NCBI RefSeq assembly: GCF_000585995.1
Contig: NZ_CP007410.1
Coordinates: forward strand, 924,001-988,000
Length of the DNA stretch: 64,000 nt
DNA from: Pseudomonas brassicacearum
Lineage (GTDB): Bacteria; Pseudomonadota; Gammaproteobacteria; Pseudomonadales; Pseudomonadaceae
Direction of reading: 5' to 3'
The notes under the pieces are model-generated. The model was not told the origin of the DNA, did no database searches, and saw nothing but the letters and a program-made list of their open reading frames with translations. Shown piece after piece: positions 5,841 to 17,596 of this stretch (within the stretch, counting starts at the first letter, position 1; every line of letters begins with the position of its first letter). The position numbers and the translations under genes were made by a program.

Positions 5841-5927
5841 CGGGAGGCTGGGAATACCGAAACGGCTGGGGCTCAACAAGCTGTTGAGTAGCCCAGTAGC
5901 GCTGAAACCCTTGATTCACTGGATTTC
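5841..5927. repeat. diverged copy of the integrase-side attachment arm (relic island)
   Basis: The 87 bases left of the left repeat align with those left of the right repeat (17070-17159) with gaps and substitutions. Both contain a GGRATACC-type motif (GGAATACC at 5851-5858 here), then AAACGSCTGG, CTCA, a CCC run, and GCGCTGAAA about 30 bases before the repeat. Chromosomal DNA at a simple insertion would not be expected to resemble the island's integrase side, so this supports an earlier related insertion. Confidence 0.7.
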
Positions 5928-5984
5928 AGGCACAAAAAAAGACGTCCGTGGACGTCTTTAGATGATGAAATGGTGGAGCCGGGG
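5928..5984. repeat. attL: left direct repeat of the ssrA island
   Basis: 57 bases identical to 17160-17216 except position 5970 (A here, G at 17202). The repeat contains the ssrA transcription terminator (inverted repeat around GACGTCCGTGGACGTC) and the last 14 bases of the tmRNA gene (reads as GGCTCCACCA on the minus strand). Here the tmRNA portion ends after 14 bases, so it is a displaced 3' fragment, not a second gene. Confidence 0.93.
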
Positions 5985-6460
5985 TAATCTGAATTGATAT
6001 TGTATGTTACTGATTATTATAATTAATATATATTTTATATTTTAATTGGAATACCGATTGGAATACCTTCCGAAATAAACATTCGATCTGACAACCGCGC
6101 ACAACCGCACTGCATTTCAAGCGAGGAAAGAAGCGAATGTTGACCTACTGGCGCGTATGTCGGCAGCAAAAATGCTAGAGCCTTTCGGAGTCGAAGCGCT
6201 TTGCGAGGAGCACTGCTACGGCTTACACCGCCAAGCAGAAAGGCCCCAGTCGTTGGGAACCTACGTGGCGATAGCCACGGCTCCCATTCAACCTGCCTGA
6301 CGCCCCTTCATTCAAGGTTTCCACACCGTTACATGGCATTCCTCTGGGAAAGACTCAGTTTGGCAAACGACTCCACTTCTTGAATCTAACTGGGCGGTTG
6401 AATAGGTATACTCGGCACGGATTTCGTCGACGATGACGTGGAATGTAGCGGAGCCTCCCC
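5985..6460. other. left end of island, no convincing gene
   Basis: The first 80 bases are very AT-rich (runs of TATA/TTAA), as is common at attachment-site arms, and include the paired motif at 6045-6067. The rest has no open frame with a ribosome site. The last part must hold the promoter of the Mrr-STAND gene; I see no confident -35/-10 pair. Confidence 0.5.
6045..6067. repeat. paired GGAATACC motif, probable integrase arm sites (left)
   Basis: ATTGGAATACC occurs twice with a 12-base period, giving GGAATACC-N4-GGAATACC. The right end of the island has the same layout with GGGATACC. Matching arms at both ends of one element are expected for binding sites of the integrase's N-terminal arm-binding domain or of an excision factor. 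Confidence 0.6.
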
Positions 6461-8734
6461 TTGAACGAGTACGACTTTTCGCGGCTGAATGATAAAGAAT
6501 TTGAGGTCTTCTGTACGGACTTACTTGGTGCCCATGAAGGTGTAATTTTCGAGCGTTTCAAGCCAGGGCGAGATGGTGGAATTGACGGTCGTTACATCGT
6601 AAACTCTGAAACCTTATGGATAGTTCAGTGCAAGCATTGGGCTCCAGCAGGTCGTGATCAACTATTTAAAAAAATTTCAGTTGAGGAAAGAGAAAAGGTT
6701 ATAAAGCTAAATCCCCAGAGATATATCTTGGTGGTTTCTTTCAAGCTGTCGCCGAGCGATAAGAAGCGGTTGATGGAAGCATTGAGTCCGTTTGTAAAAA
6801 GCCCTAGCGATATTCTCGGTCAGGAAGATTTAAATGATCTTCTTGCTAAGTACCCAGCGGTAGAGTCTCGTCATTATAAGCTTTGGCTTGTTAGCTCAAA
6901 CTTGATGCGGTACTTTATGGATAAAGCTATTCATGATCGTAGCAGAAATACTATCGAAGAAATAATCAGTAAGTCAGCGGTCTACACGCAAACATCGAAT
7001 CACTCCGCCGCAATTGAACGGTTGGAAAAATATCATGTTGTCGTTTTGACCGGGGCCGCGGGTATTGGTAAGACGACACTGGCAGAACAGTTGATATTGC
7101 ACTATGTGGCACAGGGCTACTCGCTGGTAGAAATTTCTAAAGATGTCATTGAAGCAGAAAGTGTGTATCTGCCGGAAGAGAAGCAAATATTCTATTTTGA
7201 TGATTTCTTGGGGCGAAACTACTTGGAGGCGGTGAGTGGGGTTGAAAGCGCAGAAGTGGTCAGTTTTATAAGGAGGGTTGCAAGAGATAGAAATAAGCGT
7301 TTTGTCCTAACATCAAGGACTACTATTTTAAGTCAAGGGAAAATGCTCAGTGATGTTTTCGAGAATGGCAATGTGCACACAAAGGAGTATGAGATTACGC
7401 TTGATTCTCTAACAAGGTTAGATAAAGCGAATATTTTGTACAACCATATCTGGCACTCATCCTTGGGTATTGAGTTTATCGATCAGATTTACGAGTCTAA
7501 GCGCTATCGGGTTATTATCGATCATAAAAATTTTAACCCCCGACTGGTACAGTTTATCACCGATGCACAGCGGCTTGAAAACGTGGCGGTAAATTCATAC
7601 TGGCAGTACGCAGAGGGGCTGTTAAACAACCCGGAAAAGGTGTGGGATAACGTATTTGACGCTCTTTTAGACGATTGCGGTCGTGCCCTCGCTTTGCTAG
7701 TAGCAATGAATGGGCGTGAGATTTCTGAAGAAGCTCTTACCGAGGCGTTTGCTAGGTACATCAGCGCTCCCGGAGTAGGTGCATTATCTGGGAAAATGGA
7801 TTTTTCCATCAATGTGCGCCATTTATCAGGTTCTATACTGACTCGCATGATCCTGAGTAGCTCTATACCTTACCTGAAACTATTTAATCCTTCATTGGGC
7901 GACTATATATTAGCGAGGTACTGTAAGAATGCACCGGCTTTACGTGCATGCTTTAGCAGCTTGCTAACTATGCAGTCTCTAACCACTATTTCCGAGTTGG
8001 TTAAGAACGGGTTTATTTCAAGCCGTTATGCAGGCGAATTTATTGATTTCACTTTTAGGCGTTTAGGGGAGCAAGAGTTTTTCGGGGTGTCAGGCGAGTA
8101 CTTGGCAAATTTGTGCATGATAAGGGCTCAATACGTCCGCCCCCTGTGTGTTTCCGACAGTTCTCTTATTCGGGCAGTTGAAAAAATTCTAAGCGCTGAC
8201 TGTGGAATGGGCTATATGTACTCCGCTCAGATAATTCTCTGGGCTCTTGACAAGGATATTGCTGGCGAGGACTTGTCTCGCATACAACGGTTTTTGTCAG
8301 TTGCTTTCGAAAATCACCCTTCGGATAGAGAAATGATTGCTCTTGGAGGAGTCGTAGCTCACATGATTCGGCACGGGTACAGCTATCTGGGTAACCTCTA
8401 TGATGAAGTTGTTTCCTATCAGATGATAGAGGAGTTCGGAGATAACTTTCCTGAGGATCGAGTGTTCTCCGACATTAATACCGAGTCAAGTGCTAGGGCG
8501 AGACTTAAGGGGCTGATCTGTGAGTTGGCCGAAGAGTATGGCGCTGTAGATGTCTCCCATGTGGCTAGATCTGTTTATGACTCGATCGATCTGGAGCAGA
8601 AATTTTTTGAGCACTTCAATGAAGTAGATGCTGACTCACCTTCACCCTATGATCCACCTGTGAAGGCCAGGCCTCGTTTTGCCGATTTATCTAATGATGA
8701 AATAGATTACCTCTTTTCTCGAAACGACACTTGA
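6461..8734 (+). CDS. Mrr-like restriction endonuclease fused to a STAND NTPase (putative anti-phage protein)
   Basis: 757 residues. Residues about 1-140 are an Mrr/PD-(D/E)XK nuclease: GRDGGIDGRY with the catalytic acid (Asp38 or Asp42), then VQCKHW with Gln56 and Lys58. Residues about 170-370 are a STAND-type NTPase resembling nSTAND3: Walker A GAAGIGKTT (198-206), Walker B FYFDDF (244-249), an Arg-containing strand VLTSR (282-286), and NPR at about 359-361. The remaining 390 residues are alpha-helical, without a clear repeat, and should be the sensor. STAND proteins with nuclease N-termini (Avs and related) detect phage proteins and then degrade DNA; this one is much shorter than Avs. The start is TTG with GGAG seven bases upstream. 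The gene is AT-rich relative to its neighbours and has no partner gene nearby. Confidence 0.85.
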   Translation: MNEYDFSRLNDKEFEVFCTDLLGAHEGVIFERFKPGRDGGIDGRYIVNSETLWIVQCKHWAPAGRDQLFKKISVEEREKVIKLNPQRYILVVSFKLSPSDKKRLMEALSPFVKSPSDILGQEDLNDLLAKYPAVESRHYKLWLVSSNLMRYFMDKAIHDRSRNTIEEIISKSAVYTQTSNHSAAIERLEKYHVVVLTGAAGIGKTTLAEQLILHYVAQGYSLVEISKDVIEAESVYLPEEKQIFYFDDFLGRNYLEAVSGVESAEVVSFIRRVARDRNKRFVLTSRTTILSQGKMLSDVFENGNVHTKEYEITLDSLTRLDKANILYNHIWHSSLGIEFIDQIYESKRYRVIIDHKNFNPRLVQFITDAQRLENVAVNSYWQYAEGLLNNPEKVWDNVFDALLDDCGRALALLVAMNGREISEEALTEAFARYISAPGVGALSGKMDFSINVRHLSGSILTRMILSSSIPYLKLFNPSLGDYILARYCKNAPALRACFSSLLTMQSLTTISELVKNGFISSRYAGEFIDFTFRRLGEQEFFGVSGEYLANLCMIRAQYVRPLCVSDSSLIRAVEKILSADCGMGYMYSAQIILWALDKDIAGEDLSRIQRFLSVAFENHPSDREMIALGGVVAHMIRHGYSYLGNLYDEVVSYQMIEEFGDNFPEDRVFSDINTESSARARLKGLICELAEEYGAVDVSHVARSVYDSIDLEQKFFEHFNEVDADSPSPYDPPVKARPRFADLSNDEIDYLFSRNDT

Positions 8735-9465
8735 TTTGCTTACCTGTTGTCATGTCGTCGCGTAACTTCTAAATCATGAGATTGAATTGCCACATACCAA
8801 CTATAGACTGGCTGTCGCATTACTTTCTTAGTTATGCGACGGCTCGGTTTTAGTAAAGCTTCAGATAAAAGCGGCGAAAATGGCTGCTCAGGCTAGTCTG
8901 CACCCAAGGTGGCCTCAGGCCGGTAGGAGCCCTAACGCCATCCCTGGCTCACTTCGCAAAGCGGTCAAGGAGCTATTTCTAGTTGAATAGAAGCTGTATC
9001 AGGGGCTGTGCGGTGGTACTGGGGCAAATCGTTAGCCGCTTAGAGCCGTGAGAGTGACCCGGTCAGTAAATACATCAGCTTCGCTTCGGACATCAATGCG
9101 AATTTAGGTGACCCCGCAGGCTCTAGTTTCTAAGTGGTGCGATAACTAAGCTGATGCTGGGAATCCTTCGTTTTGGCCAGCATGAGTCGACTATAGAGGC
9201 CACTGGCAAAAAGCAGCATCCTTGGAGACATAGGAACTGTGGTAGGCGGTCTCGAATGAATTGCGATCGAATTCTGGTTTGGCTTATGAGTGTCCTTGGC
9301 GAGCCTACATCAGAAAAGCTGCCCTAGATTCGAGCTGAATTTAGCTCGCGGTCATTTAAATTTTTGAGGCAAATTGCTATCATGAGCTATTGGCTCAAAA
9401 TTTGAGTAGGCCCCGAATCGCATGCTTCAGCAATTCGGTAAATCAGTCGTGCAGCACCGCAGGGA
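8735..9465. other. 731-base gap between the two defence candidates
   Basis: No frame longer than about 30 codons looks coding. A hairpin at 8814-8840 (GTCGCAT / ATGCGAC) may end the upstream transcript, though it lacks a T-run. A short frame at 9043-9133 (ending ...NLGDPAGSSF then TAA) looks like it could be a gene tail, but it has no start or body. The final 120 bases are AT-rich and probably carry the promoter of the ATPase-TOPRIM gene. Relics or a small RNA are possible; neither is shown. Confidence 0.4.
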
Positions 9466-11301
9466 ATGCAAGCAAAATTGAATATAATTGAACTCAGAAA
9501 CTTTAAACGATTTTCAAATATTTCAATAAAGCTCAGAGATACGGGTTTAACTCTTATTTCGGGAACCAATAATTCCGGTAAGACAAGTATTTTGCACGCT
9601 TTGGCAATTTGGGAGTTCACCAAAATGCTATTGGTTAATTACAGAGGTAGTAAATCGCTGGCGCATGATTACGATTCTAAGAATGGTCTTGGCATTGCAC
9701 CTGAAGCTTTTTCACCGATAAGTATTCCTTCGCTTCGCTACCTGTGGAAGGACCAGAACACCAATGGGTCCTACGGACTAAAAATAAAAATTGGTTGGAG
9801 AGAATCAGGCCAGAGCTATCATCTTGAGTTAGCGTACTCATTGAATGGCAATAATTTCGCGATAAAAAAATCGGACTCCAATCTGCTCGCCGATACCAAG
9901 ATCCCTGTAATCGCTTATCTCCCACCATTTGGCGGGATGAACGAAAATGAAACTTGGCTATCCATCGCTGATCGGCGCAAGCTTATTGGCAAGGGACAGG
10001 CTGGTTCGGTGATCCGCAATCTGTTACTCGACCTGTATACTGCACACGAGCAAAAGATCAAGCAGGCCAAGGAAGAATTATTGGCAGGCAGGGTGCGGCT
10101 CCCTGCCGTAGACAAACAAAAATTGGAACTCGTGGACACCGAGTGGCGGCAGCTTGAGGAAATTCTCACGGACGTTTTCCGCGTAAAGCTTTGCCCAAAA
10201 CCATTCGACAGTAATTTCCACAATTTTGTGCACGTGGACGTGATTGACGTTGCCGTCAATACAACTACCGGTGCCAAGGAGGCCAGGCCTTCATCGCGGC
10301 GAGATCTGATGATCGAGGGTAGCGGATTCCTACAGTGGGTCAGCGTATTTGCTTTGGCACTAGACTCCAATAATGACATTTTACTACTAGATGAGCCTGA
10401 CGCACACCTGCACACCTCCCTCCAGTCGCTGCTTCTGGAAAAATTAGAAGGCATCTGCCTGCGCAAGAAGAAGCAGATTCTGATGGTAAGCCACAGCCCG
10501 GAGCTGATTAAATTAGTCGACTATGAGAAAATGCTCCACGTCGAGCAATCCAAAGCTTCGTATTTGCGTAACAAAGAGCAGAAGGTGCTCGTGCTGGAAG
10601 GGCTTGGAAGCAAGTACTTCCCGCTTCTTGATGACATCATAAGATATAAGAAAGTTCTTCTAGTCGAGAATGCTAGTGATGCCCGCGCCTTGCAAAGTAT
10701 TTGCAAGCAATTGGATATGAAATGGCCTGAAAACCTAGTTCTGTGGGTCACAAACAAGAAGCACTCGGAACGAAAGACACTGATCATCGAGCTTAATCAG
10801 AAGATCATGCAGGATACTCGTCAGCCGATCAACGCTTATAGCTTGCGTGACTTGGACGATGAAAATTACAGCACCACCAATGCCGACCTTCAATGGAATA
10901 CTGATCAGAGAGACGACTCTGGCAAGCACACGATCTTGAGGTATCGGACATTACGGCGTCGGGAGATTGAAAATTACCTAATCATTCCCACTGCGATATC
11001 TAGGTATATTTCCAAAAATCGTAAAAACAATGAAATCTCCACAGATGTTGATGCTGTCAATGAGTATTTACTGAAAAAGCATGGGCTGGTTGTGCCAAGC
11101 AACTATAAAGAAAGTGACCGCGAAAGTAATTCGGAGGGGCTTTTCAGCAAGGACGGCAAACAAGTTCTTGATGGCATTCGTCGCTACTTCAAAGTAAAAT
11201 TTAATAAAGAAGACTATATACAACAGATAGAAAAAGGTGAGGTGTGCGCGGATCTTATAACTATAATTAAAGAGCTTATAGATATGTGCAAGACCAAGTA
11301 G
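9466..11301 (+). CDS. ABC-type ATPase fused to a TOPRIM/DUF4435-like nuclease (OLD-like; possible fused PARIS AriA-AriB)
   Basis: 611 residues. The N-terminus LNIIELRNFKRF and Walker A GTNNSGKT (33-40) are typical of AAA_15/AAA_21 (RecF/OLD-like) ATPases. The other half-site is IEGSGFLQW (signature-like, about 283-291), Walker B DILLLDEPDAHLH (304-316) and the switch histidine in VSHSPEL. From about 395 a second domain starts with VLLVEN (Glu401), then RDLDDE (Asp462, Asp464) and RRREIENYL (497-505). Glu plus DxD is the TOPRIM nuclease layout, and E-I-E-N-Y-L is the kind of motif seen in DUF4435. OLD nucleases and PARIS (AriA ATPase, AriB DUF4435 effector, sometimes fused) both fit. No UvrD-like GajB gene follows, which argues against Gabija. 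The ATG is chosen for its fit to the family N-terminus; its ribosome site is poor. Confidence 0.82.
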   Translation: MQAKLNIIELRNFKRFSNISIKLRDTGLTLISGTNNSGKTSILHALAIWEFTKMLLVNYRGSKSLAHDYDSKNGLGIAPEAFSPISIPSLRYLWKDQNTNGSYGLKIKIGWRESGQSYHLELAYSLNGNNFAIKKSDSNLLADTKIPVIAYLPPFGGMNENETWLSIADRRKLIGKGQAGSVIRNLLLDLYTAHEQKIKQAKEELLAGRVRLPAVDKQKLELVDTEWRQLEEILTDVFRVKLCPKPFDSNFHNFVHVDVIDVAVNTTTGAKEARPSSRRDLMIEGSGFLQWVSVFALALDSNNDILLLDEPDAHLHTSLQSLLLEKLEGICLRKKKQILMVSHSPELIKLVDYEKMLHVEQSKASYLRNKEQKVLVLEGLGSKYFPLLDDIIRYKKVLLVENASDARALQSICKQLDMKWPENLVLWVTNKKHSERKTLIIELNQKIMQDTRQPINAYSLRDLDDENYSTTNADLQWNTDQRDDSGKHTILRYRTLRRREIENYLIIPTAISRYISKNRKNNEISTDVDAVNEYLLKKHGLVVPSNYKESDRESNSEGLFSKDGKQVLDGIRRYFKVKFNKEDYIQQIEKGEVCADLITIIKELIDMCKTK

Positions 11302-11349
11302 ACGTATTTATTCTTATGTTTAAGTAGTGCCGAAAGCGGTCGATGGCAA

Positions 11350-11520
11350 ATGCTCGCTATGTTGTGTTTAGGGGGGGCGGTTGCTCCTGGCCGATTGTTG
11401 CCTGCCGCAAATAGTCACAATCGACCCAAAACCGAAAGTATCATCGCCCAGGTGATCACCACGGAGCGTTTGAAGCAGGTTTCTGCTGCGGTTGCAGCGG
11501 ATGCTCATCATGCGTTGTGA
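11350..11520 (+). CDS. possible 56-residue small protein
   Basis: An ATG frame follows the ATPase-TOPRIM stop by 48 bases, in the same frame, ending TGA at 11518-11520. It reads a hydrophobic start (MLAMLCLGGAVAPG) and a helical tail (ITTERLKQVSAAVAADAHH). No clear ribosome site is present. The surrounding words (CCGAAAGCGGTCG, CCGATTGTTGCC) look like a degenerate intergenic repeat of pseudomonads, so this may not be a gene. The tail could also be the relic of a larger protein. Confidence 0.25.
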   Translation: MLAMLCLGGAVAPGRLLPAANSHNRPKTESIIAQVITTERLKQVSAAVAADAHHAL

Positions 11521-11595
11521 AGCCGTCACCTCCCAATCAACTAGTGTTGATGCCTGAGTCCGTAATTGACGTTTGAGATTTTGCTTTCCCCGCCC

Positions 11596-11639
11596 AACCC
11601 TCCGATCAAGCGATCTTTGATCGCGCCGATCGGAGGGTT
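11596..11639. terminator. long hairpin, terminator-like
   Basis: AACCCTCCGATC pairs perfectly with GATCGGAGGGTT. Inside it, GCGATC/GATCGC forms a second stem. A T-run (TTTTTTT) follows about ten bases later on the + strand. It lies after the ATPase-TOPRIM gene and may end its transcript. Confidence 0.6.
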
Positions 11640-11785
11640 CATTCGCTTTTTTTCGAAGCCACCGCTATCTACCGTCTAGCGCCACGCCTTTGCCCGTCAG
11701 TAATTTTCCCACCGGTATATATCGAGCGCTGTGCATCTACAGAGTGTCGTTGCAGCGATTGTCGTGGGTCTATGGTTACAGAGTT

Positions 11786-11862
11786 GGCGACACCGGCGAC
11801 ACCGGCGACAATCCATGCGGAGCTGGGCCTGGAGCATGGCGACAAAAATGGCGACAGTCGCC
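11786..11862 (-). repeat. GTCGCC repeat cluster A
   Basis: GGCGAC (minus-strand GTCGCC) occurs at 11786, 11795 and 11804 with exact 9-base spacing, then at 11838 and 11850, plus one GTCGCC at 11857. Read on the minus strand, the pattern (pair, gap of about 28, triplet at 9-base steps) matches cluster B at 14079-14159, including flanking words TTTGTCGCCA and ATTGTCGCCGGTGTCGCC. The two clusters are in opposite orientation. Confidence 0.65.
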
Positions 11863-12157
11863 ACTGCTTACCCGTTTTGGCAGTGACGCTTGACCAGCTT
11901 TTCGAGTGGGTATAACAATTGGCGCACGGACCGCTGTCGTTGACAGCACCAGCCCAGGTAGCCAAAACCTTCAAGGCTACGTCACTCGCGTGGTGGTGGT
12001 TCTTCCGAAGTGCGATTAGCATCCGGCGGCTCGCACGGTCACTCCCCAAGAGTGATGGATGCCTACTCGACTGAATCTGCCCACTGCGGCAGACGATGCA
12101 CCTTCCTCGCTGCGCTGCAGCAACCTCACCTTTCGGCACACTTCGCTGCGCCAGACT

Positions 12158-12192
12158 GCGCCCGTCTCTTTCTCCCGGAAAGAGACGGGCGC
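12158..12192. repeat. 14-bp perfect palindrome
   Basis: GCGCCCGTCTCTTT and AAAGAGACGGGCGC flank a 7-base loop. There is no T-run and no upstream gene to terminate, so a protein site, cruciform or processed RNA is more likely than a terminator. Confidence 0.6.
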
Positions 12193-12616
12193 TTGTACCG
12201 CTGCTGCAAGCTACGTAGTACAGGGCATTGCCGCAACTCTCCTCGTGACAATCGGCCTGACAAATCCGATTCGTCGCCATCCGCATCGACACAGGCACCG
12301 GTTGCCGCAGCCTTTGAAAAGGCTGCACCTGACTGACAGTCAGGCATGCCCAAGGTGTCCATGTCGTTGCCTTTTCCTGCTCAGGATCTCCAGGTGCCGA
12401 ACTCGTCAGTCGGCACAGCCTCCACCCGCCCGCATCTTCGGATGCGTCTAAGGAGGCCAGATTCATGGGGTCATACCCTTGCTCCCGGTCGTAAGGAGCC
12501 GTTCGTTCCGCGTCAGTGAACGCCTCACAGGCCGCAGGGGCCTTGATCCCTGATAACACTCAACAGCCGTGGCGGGGCTACGTGAGGATAACCAGCAATG
12601 AACGAGGAGAGGGCCC

Positions 12617-14023
12617 ATGCAGCAGTTAGATCCGAAGCTTGAACTACCGCGACCGCCTCGACCGCTGATTGAGTCGAATCCCGTGGCCCAGCCTTATCCG
12701 GTGCAGGCACTGGGTGGGATTCTGGGGCCTGCGGTGGAGCGCATGGCCGAGGTCATCGGCGTGCCCCAGGCGCTGGCCGCGCAATCGGTGTTGGCTGCCT
12801 CGGCGCTGGCGACCCAAGGTCATGCGGGCTTACAGCTCGACGGGAGAAATTATCCCCTGTCGCTGTACTTGATCACCGTGGCCGCGTCTGGGGATCGTAA
12901 AACGGCGGCAGATCGATGTGCATTGCTGCCTGCACGAGAATGGGAGCGTGAGCAGTGGCAGCGCTACCGCGAACAACTCTCCCGGTACCGTGCCGCACAG
13001 CGACAGGCGCAGCGTATCAACCCCGCCGATCCCGACTCCGCAAACAGCCTGCCGCTCGAAGCGGAGCCCTCGGCACCCCGGTTGATCACCACAGACCCGA
13101 CTATCGAAGCCCTGATCAAAGGGCTCTGTCATGACTTGCCTAGCATGGGCCTGTTCTGTGACGAAGGCGGACAGTTCCTCGGCAGCAGCACCATGAGTCG
13201 GGATAATCGTTTGAAAGCGGTCACGACCTTGTCGTCACTCTGGGACGGTAGCCCGATTGATCGCGCTCGCTCCATGGTAGGCGAAAGCTTTCGGGCTTAT
13301 GACCGACGCTTGAGCCTGCACCTCATGCTGCAACCGTACTTGGCCATGCAGTTACTCAGTGACCCGTTGCTGCAGGGGCAAGGCATCCTCGGTCGTTGTT
13401 TGATGACCTGGCCCACCAGCCTGGCCGGACAACGCAGCTACCAAGCTGTCGACTTATCCCAAGACGCTGCCCTAAAGCGCTATCACCACCGCCTTTCGGC
13501 GCTGTTTCATCTGCCCTGGTCACTTACCCCTGACGGTGCCCTGCAGCTATCACCGCTGACCCTCAGTCCGTTAGCCCGCCGTCGCTGGATTGATTTGCAT
13601 GATGCCATCGAAGCTCAGCTGGGTGAGTTTGGCGAGCTGGCCAGCGTACGGCCCAGCGGATCGAAGTCTGCCGATAACCTGCTGCGCGTCGCCGGCATTC
13701 TTGCAGTTGTGGAGGAGAGCAGCGTCGTGGAGGTCGACCATATCCAGCGGGCCTCGGCCTTAGTTGGCTACTACCTCACCGAGATCCAGCGTCTGACTGA
13801 GCAGGAGCCAGTGTGTCGAATTAAGGAGGAGGCTGACCGGCTGCTGCGCTGGCTGCAGATCAAAGATTGGAAGCGCTTCAGTATTCGGGAGCTGAATCGC
13901 AATGGTCCCCGCTTTGCCCGGAAGAGCAGTCGCCATGCCGCCAAGCTGCTGGTCGAGTTGCTTGAACATCAGTGGCTGATCACCGACGGTCACACCTTCG
14001 AGGTGCGCCATGTTCAATCTTGA
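12617..14023 (+). CDS. DUF3987 family protein, putative primase/helicase-like ATPase of the island
   Basis: 468 residues. The N-terminal half matches DUF3987 proteins: ALGGILGPAVERMAEVIGVP, then LYLITVAASGDRKTAADR (about 86-103), a divergent P-loop with S-G-D-R-K-T in place of GxxGxGKT, and later LFCDEGGQFLG (about 179-189), a Walker-B-like acidic strand. DUF3987 proteins are common in phages and islands and are thought to act in DNA replication; biochemical proof is thin. A strong ribosome site (GAGGAGAGGG) precedes the ATG. The stop overlaps the next gene's start by 14 bases, so the two are translationally coupled. Confidence 0.75.
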   Translation: MQQLDPKLELPRPPRPLIESNPVAQPYPVQALGGILGPAVERMAEVIGVPQALAAQSVLAASALATQGHAGLQLDGRNYPLSLYLITVAASGDRKTAADRCALLPAREWEREQWQRYREQLSRYRAAQRQAQRINPADPDSANSLPLEAEPSAPRLITTDPTIEALIKGLCHDLPSMGLFCDEGGQFLGSSTMSRDNRLKAVTTLSSLWDGSPIDRARSMVGESFRAYDRRLSLHLMLQPYLAMQLLSDPLLQGQGILGRCLMTWPTSLAGQRSYQAVDLSQDAALKRYHHRLSALFHLPWSLTPDGALQLSPLTLSPLARRRWIDLHDAIEAQLGEFGELASVRPSGSKSADNLLRVAGILAVVEESSVVEVDHIQRASALVGYYLTEIQRLTEQEPVCRIKEEADRLLRWLQIKDWKRFSIRELNRNGPRFARKSSRHAAKLLVELLEHQWLITDGHTFEVRHVQS

Positions 14024-14363
14024 TGAAGCGCTGCGCAACCATCTGGCTCAGCGCCAAAATGAACCGAAAGTGCGGTTTGTCGCCGCGAGTGTCGCCACTT
14101 TGTCGCCACGCTCAAAACCAGACAAGGCAAGGGTTGTCGCCGGTGTCGCCGATGTCGCCACCTTCCGTAAAGCTATCACCTCGCCGACAGCCATCCTTCA
14201 GTGGTTGAAAGAGGAAGGCGCGCATCTTTACGTCACCGACAACACGCTGTGTTTTCGCCCGACTGATTGGGCCCAGTTCGCTATCGTGAGTGTGCACTGG
14301 AGAGCCCTTTTGCATGATCTCGCGGCGGTCGATCAGGAGCAGGAAAATGACTCGGGTCGGTAA
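14010..14363 (+). CDS. small island protein of unknown function
   Basis: 117 residues overlapping the genes on both sides. Residues about 22-55 are coded by the GTCGCC-repeat cluster and read as repeated V-A (FVAASVATLS ... VVAGVADVAT), so the DNA repeat may constrain the protein. The C-terminal half (AILQWLKEEGAHLYVTDNTL) looks like an ordinary small alpha/beta fold. I do not recognise a family. The position between the DUF3987 and recombinase genes suggests a role in maintaining the island. Confidence 0.6.
   Translation: MFNLDEALRNHLAQRQNEPKVRFVAASVATLSPRSKPDKARVVAGVADVATFRKAITSPTAILQWLKEEGAHLYVTDNTLCFRPTDWAQFAIVSVHWRALLHDLAAVDQEQENDSGR
14079..14159 (+). repeat. GTCGCC repeat cluster B
   Basis: GTCGCC at 14079, 14091, 14102, then 14136, 14145 and 14154, the last three with exact 9-base spacing. 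It lies within a coding sequence and is the inverted counterpart of cluster A, 2.2 kb upstream, with the DUF3987 gene between them. Confidence 0.65.
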
Positions 14364-15327
14364 GCGAGCGGGGCGTAATTTTGGTTTTGGTCGCCAGCTC
14401 AGTTATGCCGGACCGCAAGCACTGAAAGATCTATTTGGCGATGGCCATTTTGCTACCGTCAAAGCCCATAGCGATCGCTGGCAGGCCTTCGTAAATTGGT
14501 GTCGATCCGATGAAGGGCCGAGGCTGAATGACGCGCGACAGATCGATCGTGAAATCCTCATGCGGTACGCCACTTATGTGCGGGAGCAGGTTGATCAGGG
14601 TAACGTCGGCATCGCCACCGCGCAGAACCGACTGTCCACAGTGAACCGAACGATGGCTGCGCTGCGCGGTGATCAGTACGTCAAAATCCCCAGTCCGAGC
14701 AAGGCGCTGGGTTTGCAACGCTCAAGCGTGCGCGGGGAGGCCCCGCAAGGCCAAGATCGTGCTCAGATCGAGTTGATCGCACGCGCACTGTCAGAGCGAG
14801 GTCAGCAGCGAGTGGCCGCAATTGTGCATCTGGGCCGGGAGACTGGTATGCGCCTGCGTGAAGCGATCTTGGCGGACCTGCCCCGACTGCAACGTGAGGC
14901 CGGGCAACTGGGCAAGATCAACATTCAGGACGGCACCAAAGGCGGTCGATCAGGCGCGTCAGCACCGCGTTGGATAGCGATCACTGATCAAATCCGTGGC
15001 GCCTTGGATAGGGCCTGGGAGGCTTCACCCAGTCGCAGTCGGAACCTGTTGGCCCCCAACGAGAGCTACAAAGAGTTTATGCAATCAGTTGTGCGACCGG
15101 CACGGGACATCTTGCATGAGCATGGATTGAAAGGCTTTCATGAGCTGCGGGCGGCTTACGCCTGTGAGCGTTATGAGCAACTGACTGGCTTGAATACACC
15201 CGTCAATGGCGGTCGTGTTCATCGAGAAGATCGAGAGCTTGATCAGCGTGCACGACAGAAGATCAGCCACGAATTGGGACATAACCGCATCGATGTGGTG
15301 AGTGCCTACATCGGAGGTCGGCGATGA
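14347..15327 (+). CDS. second tyrosine recombinase (integrase-domain protein) of the island
   Basis: 326 residues from the ATG at 14347, chosen because AGGAG lies about nine bases upstream and the longer frame runs back into the previous gene. A SAM-like N-terminal region is followed by the catalytic domain: Arg in TGMRLREA, H-E-L-R (HxxR), H in LGHNR, and the tyrosine in VSAYIGG. All recombinase residues are present, so it should be active. It differs from the P4-type integrase at 15760-17016 and is more like the Integrase_1-type proteins that travel with DUF3987 genes. It overlaps the preceding stop and the next start. It may resolve multimers, act on a second site, or help excision; I cannot tell which. 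Confidence 0.8.
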   Translation: MTRVGKRAGRNFGFGRQLSYAGPQALKDLFGDGHFATVKAHSDRWQAFVNWCRSDEGPRLNDARQIDREILMRYATYVREQVDQGNVGIATAQNRLSTVNRTMAALRGDQYVKIPSPSKALGLQRSSVRGEAPQGQDRAQIELIARALSERGQQRVAAIVHLGRETGMRLREAILADLPRLQREAGQLGKINIQDGTKGGRSGASAPRWIAITDQIRGALDRAWEASPSRSRNLLAPNESYKEFMQSVVRPARDILHEHGLKGFHELRAAYACERYEQLTGLNTPVNGGRVHREDRELDQRARQKISHELGHNRIDVVSAYIGGRR

Positions 15328-15593
15328 TGGCCGAGTTCGACATAGCGTTGTTTCTGCGCCCCGTGCTCAAAGGTGCACATGCCACGCGGCAGCGGCACAT
15401 CAGGCAAGCAGAAAGGATGCACGAGGTGATTCGTGAGCGCTGGGGTTGCGCGACTCCCTGGTCCTGGAGAGAAAAGCACGTGAGATGGTTTCTGAAGCAC
15501 TACCTGCGTTGCTCAGCTCCAGCTACCGTCTACTACTACGACTTAACAGCAGGGTTGATCCGCCGCAGAAAGGCAAAAGTCGTGGTTGCCTGA
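15324..15593 (+). CDS. small basic protein coupled to the recombinase
   Basis: 89 residues, very basic and rich in Arg, Trp and Tyr (ATPWSWREKHVRWFLKHYL, ending RRRKAKVVVA). Its ATGATG start overlaps the recombinase stop, showing coupling. A positive charge and small size fit a DNA-binding accessory factor such as an excisionase, but there is no recognised motif. Confidence 0.6.
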   Translation: MMAEFDIALFLRPVLKGAHATRQRHIRQAERMHEVIRERWGCATPWSWREKHVRWFLKHYLRCSAPATVYYYDLTAGLIRRRKAKVVVA

Positions 15594-15613
15594 TAGACCT
15601 TTAAACGTGAGCT

Positions 15614-15650
15614 CCTGAGTATGGGAATGCGGAGCCTTCCCATACTCAGG
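15614..15650. terminator. 13-14 bp perfect hairpin between convergent genes
   Basis: CTGAGTATGGGAA pairs with TTCCCATACTCAG around a 9-base loop, with one further C-G pair. It lies between the + strand backbone operon and the minus-strand integrase, so it could end transcripts from both sides although there is no T-run. Confidence 0.5.
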
Positions 15651-15759
15651 GGCTTGGCTGAAGAGGCGCAGGCATACCAGAGATCTAGCGACCGTCGTCA
15701 CTCCTTTCGCCCTGCTACACGACACGGATCGTAGCCGGTGTCGCGTACTTTTTGGATGC

Positions 15760-17016
15760 TCAGCGAATTGGTACGACATTGCGGTCCCTGGTTTGATTGA
15801 TGGCCGATGCCGACAGGCTGCCGGTGGCCGCCTTCTGGATATGTTCACTCCACCAAGCCATCATCGGACGCCGGCGTTCGATGTAGTCCGTCCTGTTGTA
15901 GGCGCTACGAACTTCGTCCTTGTCGACATGCGCCAGCGCGACCTCGATCAGTTCCGGATCCCAGCCATGCTCATTCAGGATGGTGCTCGCCATCGAGCGC
16001 AAGCCGTGGCTGACTAGACGGTCCTGAAAGCCCATGCGCTTCAACGCCATGTTGGCGGTCTGGCTATTGGCATGGGTGCGGGGATTTCTATCTGAGGGGA
16101 ACACGTACTCTCTGTTACCACTGAGTTGCTTGAGCGTCTCCAGTAACGACAGTGCCTGATCGGTAAGAGGGATTGTGTGCGGCCGACGCTTTTTCATGCG
16201 CTCTGGCGGAATGGTCCAAATGCACTTGTCGAAGTCGATATCTGCCCATCGTGTGGTGGCTGCTTCGGCAGGGCGGGTCATCGTGTGCAACTGCCATTCG
16301 ATCAGGCAGCGGGTCGTGCGCTTGATGCTGGCGTTCGCGATTTCCATCATGAGCTCGGGAAGCTCCTCAGGTGGTAGCGCAGCCATGTTCTCTTTCTTGG
16401 GTTTCTTGAACACCGCCCGAATTCCATTGAGGGGGTTCGCAAATATCAGCCCGGAGTTGACCCCATAGGTCATGATCTCGTTGAGTCGTTGACTCAATCT
16501 TTTCACGGTTTCGAGGCTCCCTTTGGCCTCGATTGGGCGAAGGATCTTGATAACCATCGGAGCGGTGATTTGAGAGAGCGGCGTTGTTTTCATGCTTGGG
16601 AAAACATGGAGTGTCAGCGATCTCCAAATGTCTTCGGCGTAGGCTTTGGTTACGGAGTCTTTCTTCAGCTCGAACCAGGCGGTGGCTACTTTCTCGAAAG
16701 TGTGTTCAGTCTCAGCAAGTTTGGCTTGCCTTACTTCATCACGCTGGGTTTTGGGATCAGTGCCCAAAGCGAGCAGCTCACGCGCCTCTGCGGCTTTCTT
16801 CCGGGCGTTGGCTAGCGAAAGGTCGGGGTATGGACCAAGCGCCATATTGATACGGCTTCTGGTCAGGGGCTCGCGGTAATTGAAATTCCACATCATTGAG
16901 CCGCTCGCGCGTACTCGAAGCTGTAAGCCATCGCCGTCGCTGAGGACGAAGTCTTTACCAGTTGCCTTGACTGCCTTGAGCTGGCGATCGGAGAGGCGGG
17001 TTGCGTTAGTAGGCAT
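15760..17016 (-). CDS. site-specific tyrosine integrase, P4/CP4-57 type, for ssrA
   Basis: 418 residues. The N-terminus MPTNATRLSDRQLKAVK and the LSDGDGLQLRV stretch are the DUF4102 arm-binding domain of P4-like integrases. The catalytic set is present: Arg in TMTRPAEAA, HGLR (HxxR), His in ALAHVD, and Tyr in VRSAYNR. The start is the ATG at 17016, supported by GGAGGT eight bases upstream; the frame can extend to 17091 but that part overlaps the arm sites. The gene points away from ssrA, and its start lies 187 bases from the tmRNA 3' end. It should recombine attP with the ssrA 3' end and reverse this with a helper. Confidence 0.93.
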   Translation of the reverse strand: MPTNATRLSDRQLKAVKATGKDFVLSDGDGLQLRVRASGSMMWNFNYREPLTRSRINMALGPYPDLSLANARKKAAEARELLALGTDPKTQRDEVRQAKLAETEHTFEKVATAWFELKKDSVTKAYAEDIWRSLTLHVFPSMKTTPLSQITAPMVIKILRPIEAKGSLETVKRLSQRLNEIMTYGVNSGLIFANPLNGIRAVFKKPKKENMAALPPEELPELMMEIANASIKRTTRCLIEWQLHTMTRPAEAATTRWADIDFDKCIWTIPPERMKKRRPHTIPLTDQALSLLETLKQLSGNREYVFPSDRNPRTHANSQTANMALKRMGFQDRLVSHGLRSMASTILNEHGWDPELIEVALAHVDKDEVRSAYNRTDYIERRRPMMAWWSEHIQKAATGSLSASAINQTRDRNVVPIR

Positions 17017-17040
17017 GGGGGCTACCTCCAGCACCGTTTT

Positions 17041-17090
17041 GGTATCCTGAAAATAGCATTTGGCAGTCCGGGATACCACCTGGGATACCA
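17041..17090. repeat. GGGATACC motifs, probable integrase arm sites (right)
   Basis: GGGATACC-ACCT-GGGATACC (12-base period) lies at 17070-17089, and an inverted copy (GGTATCC) at 17041-17047. The spacing equals that of the left pair at 6045-6067. They sit directly upstream of the integrase gene, where they could also let the integrase repress its own promoter. Confidence 0.62.
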
Positions 17091-17159
17091 AAACGCCTGG
17101 AACTCAGAAACCCTGTAAAGCCCCCATAAGCGCTGAAAGCCATGTATTTACTTGATTTT

Positions 17160-17216
17160 AGGCACAAAAAAAGACGTCCGTGGACGTCTTTAGATGATGA
17201 AGTGGTGGAGCCGGGG
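17160..17216. repeat. attR: right direct repeat at the ssrA 3' end
   Basis: 57 bases matching 5928-5984 with one mismatch. Here the repeat joins an intact tmRNA gene: its last 14 bases are the tmRNA 3' end, and the inverted repeat with an A-run (T-run on the minus strand) is the tmRNA terminator. Confidence 0.93.
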
Positions 17217-17596
17217 GGATTTGAACCCCCGTCCGCCAGTACTCCGCTGTCGGTACTACATGCGTAGCCGTGTCTATTAAGTTAACCCTCAGCGACCCGA
17301 CGGGCAGGGTGCTTTGGGCGAGTTGTGTAAGTTTTAGCCGCTTCGTCCACAACGTACTGCACGGCGATTCTGTTCTATATGACAATCACTTTGGGTTTAC
17401 AGACATCCCCTGATGATTGCTGGACCCGAAGGTACCAGAAGGGAAGGGCTAAGGCTGCTTACGCAGCGAGAGCGTATTCCCCGTAGGTTTCGTCATTGGC
17501 AACTATAAGAAGTTGCAACAGTGGATTTACGAGTTCTGTTACCAACTCGGCATGCACCTAAAGTTTCGCAACCGGCGTCGAATCCTAAACGGCCCC
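17203..17596 (-). ncRNA. ssrA: transfer-messenger RNA (tmRNA, 10Sa RNA)
   Basis: On the minus strand the RNA starts GGGGCCGTTTAGGATTCGAC and ends GTTCAAATCCCCCCGG then CTCCACCA. The 5' GGGGCCG pairs with CGGCTCC to form the alanine-type acceptor stem with one G-U pair. The tag frame at 17459-17500 reads ANDETYGEYALAA then TAA, as in P. fluorescens relatives. With SmpB (gene at 26919-27401) it frees stalled ribosomes and tags the incomplete protein for proteolysis. The gene is the integration site of the island, and its 3' 14 bases lie within the recombined repeat. Confidence 0.97.

Follow-up and report, generated by a model that had tools for sequence, protein, structure and literature searches.

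The 64,000-nt window analysed here (Pseudomonas brassicacearum contig NZ_CP007410.1, positions 924,001 to 988,000) carries, on a mobile island at ssrA, a gene for a 757-residue protein that joins an Mrr-type nuclease, an nSTAND3 NTPase and a predicted C-terminal alpha-solenoid. We regard it, with a probability of roughly 0.7, as a single-gene Avs-like STAND immune receptor, in which the solenoid would sense an invader, the NTPase would oligomerise, and the nuclease would cut DNA. The features from which we infer this function were obtained by computation: domain order, conserved residues, the island, a fast-changing sensor, its exchange in one group of relatives, and a constant C-terminal tail. 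The family is not new, being already listed as a candidate phage-defence family (PADLOC-DB 2.0 PDC-S73); compactness does not set it apart, and no description of a sensor exchanged while effector and tail stay constant was found in the literature searched.

Protein layout and family membership

The gene and its parts are as follows (window coordinates; evidence in parentheses).

6461..8734, plus strand: gene for Mrr nuclease, nSTAND3 NTPase and putative helical sensor, 757 amino acids (aa), TTG start, PADLOC PDC-S73 (open reading frame, Pfam, PADLOC, protein search)
6450..6453, plus strand: GGAG, likely ribosome-binding site, 7 bases 5' of the TTG start (sequence inspection)
6461..6889, plus strand: Mrr-type nuclease domain, residues ~1-143, with D38/D42 and Q56-x-K58 (Pfam Mrr_cat at 8-62; upper border by eye from the model)
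6983..7456, plus strand: nSTAND3 NTPase, residues 175-332, with Walker A K204, Walker B D247/D248, and R286 (Pfam, alignment)
7457..7930, plus strand: lid and winged-helix-like region, residues ~333-490, with N359-P360-R361 and N476-P477-S478 (alignment, model, Avs4 structure alignment to residue 519)
7931..8620, plus strand: alpha-solenoid, proposed sensor and fast-evolving part, residues ~491-720 (alignment profile, models, substitution ratios)
8621..8692, plus strand: disordered linker, residues 721-744 (model confidence below 50; acidic last 40 residues)
8702..8716, plus strand: conserved C-terminal tail motif, residues 748-752, IDYLF here and IDDLF in the family (alignment, motif counts)

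The TTG start is supported by the GGAG run and by the relatives, which start at the same residue (MNEYDF, VNEYDF, MSDYDF and similar). Pfam recognises Mrr_cat at residues 8-62 (27.3 bits, cut-off 21) and nSTAND3 at 175-332 (163.2 bits, cut-off 27.2). In an alignment of 79 proteins, E15, D38, D42, Q56, K58, G198, G203, K204, D248, R286, P360, and R361 are identical throughout, D247 is kept in 78 and N359 in 77, and residue 205 is T in 71 and S in 8.

An AlphaFold model was built on the database representative P0001, which differs from the window protein at residues 1, 541, and 757. Mean confidence (predicted local distance difference test, pLDDT) is 83.9; the predicted template modelling score (pTM) is 0.58, so that the relative placing of the domains is uncertain. 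The model shows the nuclease, the NTPase, the lid/winged-helix region and a helical solenoid, the last mostly above pLDDT 90; residues 721-744 are below 50, and a final short helix spans 746-752. Folded alone, the C-terminal part of the window protein gives 14 helices ahead of the linker (pLDDT 91.3, pTM 0.82).

An earlier annotation of this DNA (the original prediction) had described the gene as a nuclease joined to a STAND NTPase and a helical C-terminal part, which Pfam and the models bear out; the motifs it quoted are all present (GRDGGID at 36-42, VQCKHW at 55-60, GAAGIGKTT at 198-206, FYFDDF at 244-249, NPR at 359-361). Its C-terminal part of about 390 residues is indeed helical, but is better divided into four pieces: the lid/winged-helix region (~333-490), the 14-helix solenoid (~491-720), the linker (~721-744) and the tail helix (746-752). 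The probable defence role it proposed is also supported, function being argued from homology and setting. Structure prediction, which it had suggested as a check, gave Avs4 as the best solved-structure match, over residues 1-519. Its claim of a distinct defence type on grounds of compactness does not stand: the PADLOC PDC-S73 model matches residues 1-754 over positions 1-751 of 752 (900.6 bits, E 2.9e-271), making the family an already catalogued defence candidate. The library entry has no description, PDCs are called unvalidated in the part of PMC12988326 available, and the name PDC-S73 was not found in the literature searched (preprints and most subscription journals lay outside that search). 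The swappable sensor segment and constant tail described below go beyond the original prediction.

As a separate observation on the nuclease half (residues 3-187, window 6467-7021), it is matched by the PADLOC models Aga_TIR-PNTD1-PNTD2 (E 1.1e-40) and Aga_REase-TIR-PNTD1-PNTD2 (E 8.1e-28), which suggests that other systems use this effector module too.

A fast-changing putative sensor segment and a constant tail

The 79 proteins have a median length of 756 residues, with 72 of them between 740 and 790. Identity to the window protein, in 25-residue bins, is 24-62% up to residue 525 and 10-16% in the nine bins over 526-750, where occupancy is 0.93-0.99 in eight bins and 0.81 in the last. The ratio of nonsynonymous to synonymous substitution rates (dN/dS) was compared between residues 491-720 and 171-400 in 15 close pairs, which are not independent of each other. 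Both values could be obtained for 13, and in all 13 the ratio is greater at 491-720, although by no more than 0.01 for L028/L081. Since the values at 491-720 are 0.06-0.42, they are no demonstration of positive selection.

The C-terminal parts of 51 of the 79 share one BLAST cluster with the window protein. Profile comparison joins a 15-member group (probability 99.6), L085 (97.6), L057 (85.5), and L075 (83.3), bringing the co-linear total to 69 of 79. It found no tie to this main C-terminal domain for the other 10: the L087 group (5 rows, 9.9), L082 (6.7), L094 (5.0), L090 (0.2), and L007/L008 (0.1). Replacement of the sensor by unrelated folds is thus not favoured as a general picture, 69 of 79 C-terminal parts being one co-linear domain. 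Plasmid-borne relatives seemed to share at most residues 1-528, among the matches listed. The window protein and its nearest relative are 69-80% identical in three blocks of residues 1-490 and 52% identical at 491-735. For the window's own copy, then, what is seen is a sensor that changes faster; exchange, judged from sequence, is seen only in a Psychrobacter-like group.

In that group, two loci from records named Psychrobacter glacincola (L048 and L053) are syntenic across the 21 kb compared. Their nucleotide identity is 90% up to L048 position 11513 and 96% from 12186; the gap between corresponds to codons ~509-733 of the nSTAND gene, and there the proteins are 30-34% identical, versus 96-97% in the N-terminal module. 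A third locus from the genus (L151, 1.5 kb flanks compared) is 96% identical to L048 up to 11513 and 93% from 12224, and 97% identical to L053 up to 11655 (codon ~556) and 93% from 12255. The left border of the exchanged segment therefore varies between pairs. L059 lies at the same locus as L048 and L053, with flanks at 78-84%. The L048 protein is a full-length PDC-S73 match (852.3 bits), and 6 of 105 genomes of the genus gave a match, 4 of them full length.

The same pattern holds in a larger set of 32 proteins, made up of 29 of the 31 closest matches listed by a protein search with a Psychrobacter member (those of at least 730 aa) together with L048, L053, and L059 (P0127 duplicates L059). 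Among its 496 pairs, 161 have N-terminal modules at least 90% identical, and of these 133 fall below 60% and 106 below 45% at residues 510-732. N- and C-terminal identities are uncorrelated (Spearman 0.06, p 0.15), and clustering at 70% identity gives a single N-terminal cluster versus 11 sensor types. The identity profile of the 133 pairs drops at residue 510 and recovers at 750. Outside the group, only 6 of 315 pairs with N-terminal identity of at least 85% show less than 60% in the C-terminal part, and none less than 50%, in matches whose ranking by overall likeness disfavours such pairs. Residues ~510-735 are, on these comparisons, the fast and exchangeable part of the protein, with cassette behaviour observed in the Psychrobacter-like group. 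No report of sensor exchange in the PDC-S73 family was found by title or start of abstract, in the same literature search.

The tail behaves in the opposite way. Following an acidic linker (D+E 26% in the last 40 residues versus 16% overall), almost all relatives finish with I-D-D-L-F-x-R or something close to it. Among the 79 genome-derived proteins, 78 have [IVLM]xx[LIVM]F within their last 25 residues, against 3.7 expected when the last 60 residues are shuffled, and so do 116 of the 120 proteins listed by a protein search with the window protein; of the four without it, three are short copies (585-673 aa) and the fourth, of 745 aa, has a different ending. F752 is the sole invariant column in an alignment of 64 C-terminal parts. 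Plasmid relatives at 32-33% identity (Pseudomonas, Prosthecochloris, Streptomyces) retain the variants LRDLF, IVEMF, and IDGMF, and the distant kin L117, L118, and L119 also keep a variant; no such ending was found in the distant kin L009-L013. In the Psychrobacter-like set the tail is present in 31 of 32 proteins, always as I-D-[DE]-L-F, which means that no fewer than 10 of the 11 sensor types have it. The searches were blind to the tail, as the genome patterns lie in the nuclease and NTPase parts and the protein search words came from the first 500 residues.

The simplest explanation for a tail that persists while the domain next to it is swapped is that it makes contact either with the protein's conserved part or with a host factor. 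Two known peptide classes were considered. A beta-clamp-binding motif, suggested by the -LF ending, is not favoured: the clamp motif has Q at the position corresponding to column 748, which is I in 69, V in 6, L in 2 and a gap in 1 of the 79 proteins, and the tail is helical in the model. An SSB-like tip is not favoured either, since residues continue after the F.

These features suggest the following sequence of events. The solenoid (residues ~510-735) would bind a phage protein, or one from another invading element. Binding would free the nSTAND3 module for ATP binding and oligomerisation, as its fold and conserved NTPase residues suggest. Oligomerisation would then bring the N-terminal Mrr nucleases together into an active form, and phage and probably host DNA would be cut, aborting infection, as might be expected from Avs1-4. 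The first steps are drawn from Avs proteins, as described in the available parts of PMC12931631 and PMC12724215. The sensor would act as a cassette swapped between the N-terminal module and the tail, both of them conserved, as in the Psychrobacter-like group. The tail would probably dock on a conserved surface, either of its own subunit or of the one beside it, and might serve as a latch or in assembly.

Taken further, this becomes a tentative proposal to which we give somewhat less than even odds: that the receptor is built for sensor exchange, with a constant nuclease-NTPase and docking peptide between which recombination swaps the solenoid, so that one chromosomal locus would hold many recognition alleles and the tail would represent a type of latch or assembly contact new to STAND proteins. 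Such a receptor could be likened to plant NLR allelic series, or to systems in which DNA-specificity subunits are exchanged. The ways in which STAND receptors of bacteria alter what they recognise are, in our judgement, largely open. The family offers natural alleles of a single locus that share about 95% identity outside the sensor, so that target specificity could be mapped to the sensor without engineering, and the near-invariant tail offers a small set of residues (I748, L751, F752) bearing on how activation is restrained or relayed. If the family were confirmed as defensive, a catalogued candidate with thousands of relatives would gain a mechanism.

Genomic setting, distribution and alternatives

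The island and its other features are as follows.

5928..5984: left copy of the island repeat (repeat search)
17160..17216: right copy, the final 14 bases of ssrA and 43 bases past its 3' end (repeat search, RNA annotation)
15760..17091, minus strand: tyrosine integrase adjoining ssrA (Phage_integrase, Phage_int_M, Arm-DNA-bind_3)
17203..17596, minus strand: ssrA (tmRNA), insertion target (RNA annotation)
9466..11301, plus strand: OLD-like AAA_15 ATPase, ~0.73 kb downstream of the nSTAND gene, possible second defence gene (open reading frame, Pfam, PADLOC)
11916..12062, plus strand: radC RNA motif RF01754, between the OLD-like ATPase and DUF3987 genes (90.4 bits, gathering threshold 40)
12617..14023: DUF3987 protein, second half of the island
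14290..15327: Integrase_1 protein, second half of the island

The direct repeat of 57 bp (42 exact, 1 mismatch, 14 exact) at ssrA, with the integrase beside its right copy, delimits an island of about 11.2 kb and confirms the mobile setting originally proposed. GC content is 0.44-0.49 in the first half (6001-12000) versus 0.54-0.56 in the left flank, and 0.57-0.62 at 12001-16000; this, and the DUF3987 and Integrase_1 genes there, make the island look composite. An exact 50-bp copy of window 5920-5969 lies at 913544-913593 of the same contig (G000:C1), 10.4 kb ahead of the window, which suggests that several islands may stand in tandem at ssrA. A single copy of the nSTAND protein is encoded in the genome.

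A search of 5.8 billion proteins scored at least 2313 relatives with the window protein as query and at least 3636 with a Psychrobacter member, from ~7990 candidates and with 120 listed in each case. In Pseudomonas, 13 of 199 genomes gave a match (own genome counted), 6 over at least 95% of the query; a larger draw with a different query gave 22 of 398, 9 full length. Two N-terminal peptide patterns run over 84,980 species genomes gave 229 confirmed stretches, the best 80 of which come from Pseudomonadota, Campylobacterota, Bacteroidota, Planctomycetota, Cyanobacteriota, Parcubacteria, and others. A 78-row tree places named Pseudomonas sequences nearest to the window protein. Its phylum labels need 13 changes, with a minimum possible of 9 and 24.4 in shuffles, a sign that descent within lineages is partly preserved and that the gene has sometimes crossed phylum borders. 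The family's distribution, as sampled by these searches, is patchy, as is usual for defence genes. No relative was found in viral contigs by six peptide patterns, or in E. coli genomes by a distant DNA search; phages had relatives in 2 of 50,697 records, both partial. The C-terminal part alone gave no plasmid match at E up to 0.1.

Some irregular relatives were also seen. Two Pseudomonas genomes have paired distant nSTAND3-like frames (~765 and 1357-1377 aa) within ~5 kb of each other: G101:C54 270331 and 273335 (L140, L149), and G059:C1 2427838 and 2432080 (L142, L150). At G157:C111:15300-15440 (L014, L148), the first 46-48 codons of a second copy stand as a remnant beside a full gene, perhaps left over from recombination or duplication. 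A Psychrobacter relative (L153, 1492-4293) has at least 934 aa (1166 in the open frame) and matches PDC-S73 with 258.5 bits over model positions 4-686; longer versions of the nuclease-nSTAND plan therefore exist.

Carriage on an integrative island, and the 30 of 53 plasmid records with a relative that were typed conjugative, show that mobile elements carry the family, and could suggest that its targets are plasmids, conjugative elements or competing islands instead of phage. Carriage does not reveal the target, however, and for the closest relatives by structure, Avs3-5, sensing of phage components is described (PMC12931631, PMC12724215, available parts); we think element exclusion unlikely.

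Another possibility is a modification-dependent type IV restriction enzyme of Mrr type, recognising foreign or modified DNA directly, with the NTPase serving cleavage. The Mrr catalytic domain that would define it is present, above its cut-off, and NTPase-coupled restriction, such as McrBC, exists. One argument against it is that this NTPase is an nSTAND3, of the STAND switch class; further, the fold match runs along Avs4 to its residue 512, and the C-terminal part is a predicted alpha-solenoid with no match to a DNA-binding family. Sensor replacement is neutral here, because DNA-specificity subunits are also exchanged. We consider direct restriction improbable.

The neighbouring genes fit a defence setting rather than an obligate partner. 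OLD-family ATPases are the most frequent neighbours (among the 115 nearest neighbours scanned, 6 match PADLOC Old and 7 match Pfam AAA_15; uncontrolled counts). The absence of a partner gene noted in the original prediction fits most relatives, but not all: an OLD-family ATPase adjoins in six loci, which form one cluster and are spread over the tree (6 changes), with no gap in two and 3 bases in one by crude reading-frame ends, and the window has a more distant OLD-like ATPase ~0.73 kb downstream. That protein (AAA_15, 74 bits) has no evident partner, and its best PADLOC matches are to the AriA, AriAB, ATPase-Toprim, PtuA, and GajA models (at most 73.8 bits). Despite the adjoining loci, it is very improbable that the nSTAND protein is half of a two-gene system with this ATPase, as most loci lack such a neighbour, the window ATPase is only weakly like its L067 counterpart (E 5e-5 over 127 residues), and OLD genes are common in defence islands.

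Comparison with known systems

The nearest catalogued system is PDC-S73 itself, to which the window protein belongs without any difference found in domain content. A single-gene Avs-like receptor, our preferred reading, is most directly compared with Avs4. In the predicted structure, residues 1-519 of the window protein, covering the N-terminal domain, the STAND core and the region after it, can be aligned with Avs4 up to its residue 512, so that a common fold of effector and STAND core is possible; the Avs4 chain has 1534 residues versus 757, and the putative sensor here is much shorter. PADLOC contains Avs models. By sequence, the window protein had no Avs4 match at E up to 1, and no Avs chain was among the Protein Data Bank (PDB) matches listed, which does not amount to exclusion; no Avs-named model appeared in 14 PADLOC families at E up to 1 or in 20 NCBIfam rows, searches in which the larger nSTAND proteins gave no positive control. 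The plan of Avs1-5 (effector, central STAND NTPase, C-terminal repeat sensor) is matched in profile and predicted structure, with the C-terminal repeats as the putative sensor. In the parts of the sources available, Avs1-4 act through nucleases (PMC12931631) and Avs3-5 sense phage components (PMC12931631, PMC12724215).

Avs5 is like the window protein in its nSTAND3 and in size, which removes compactness as an unusual trait: Avs5 chains in PDB have 764-833 residues, and PaAvs5-1, with nSTAND3, extends to at least residue 828 (PMC12931631, in part). The C-terminal helical repeats of Avs5 are described there as variable and essential for immunity. Its effector is SIR2, whereas that of the window protein is an Mrr nuclease (Mrr_cat); and the portion of PMC12931631 available mentions no conserved tail, which the window family has.

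The single-gene effector-NTPase-sensor plan is shared with bNACHT and other NLR-like bacterial proteins. NACHT scores 22.3 in the window protein, below the Pfam cut-off of 26.7, and NCBIfam DS8 17.5 bits against a cut-off of 790; DS-8 is a single-protein NACHT example (PMC13092281, in part). In multicellular bacteria, diversity-generating retroelements are described as diversifying putative antigen sensors of conflict systems (PMC10907252, in part); those sensors vary by error-prone reverse transcription, whereas the window family, going by its Psychrobacter-like members, appears to replace the whole segment.
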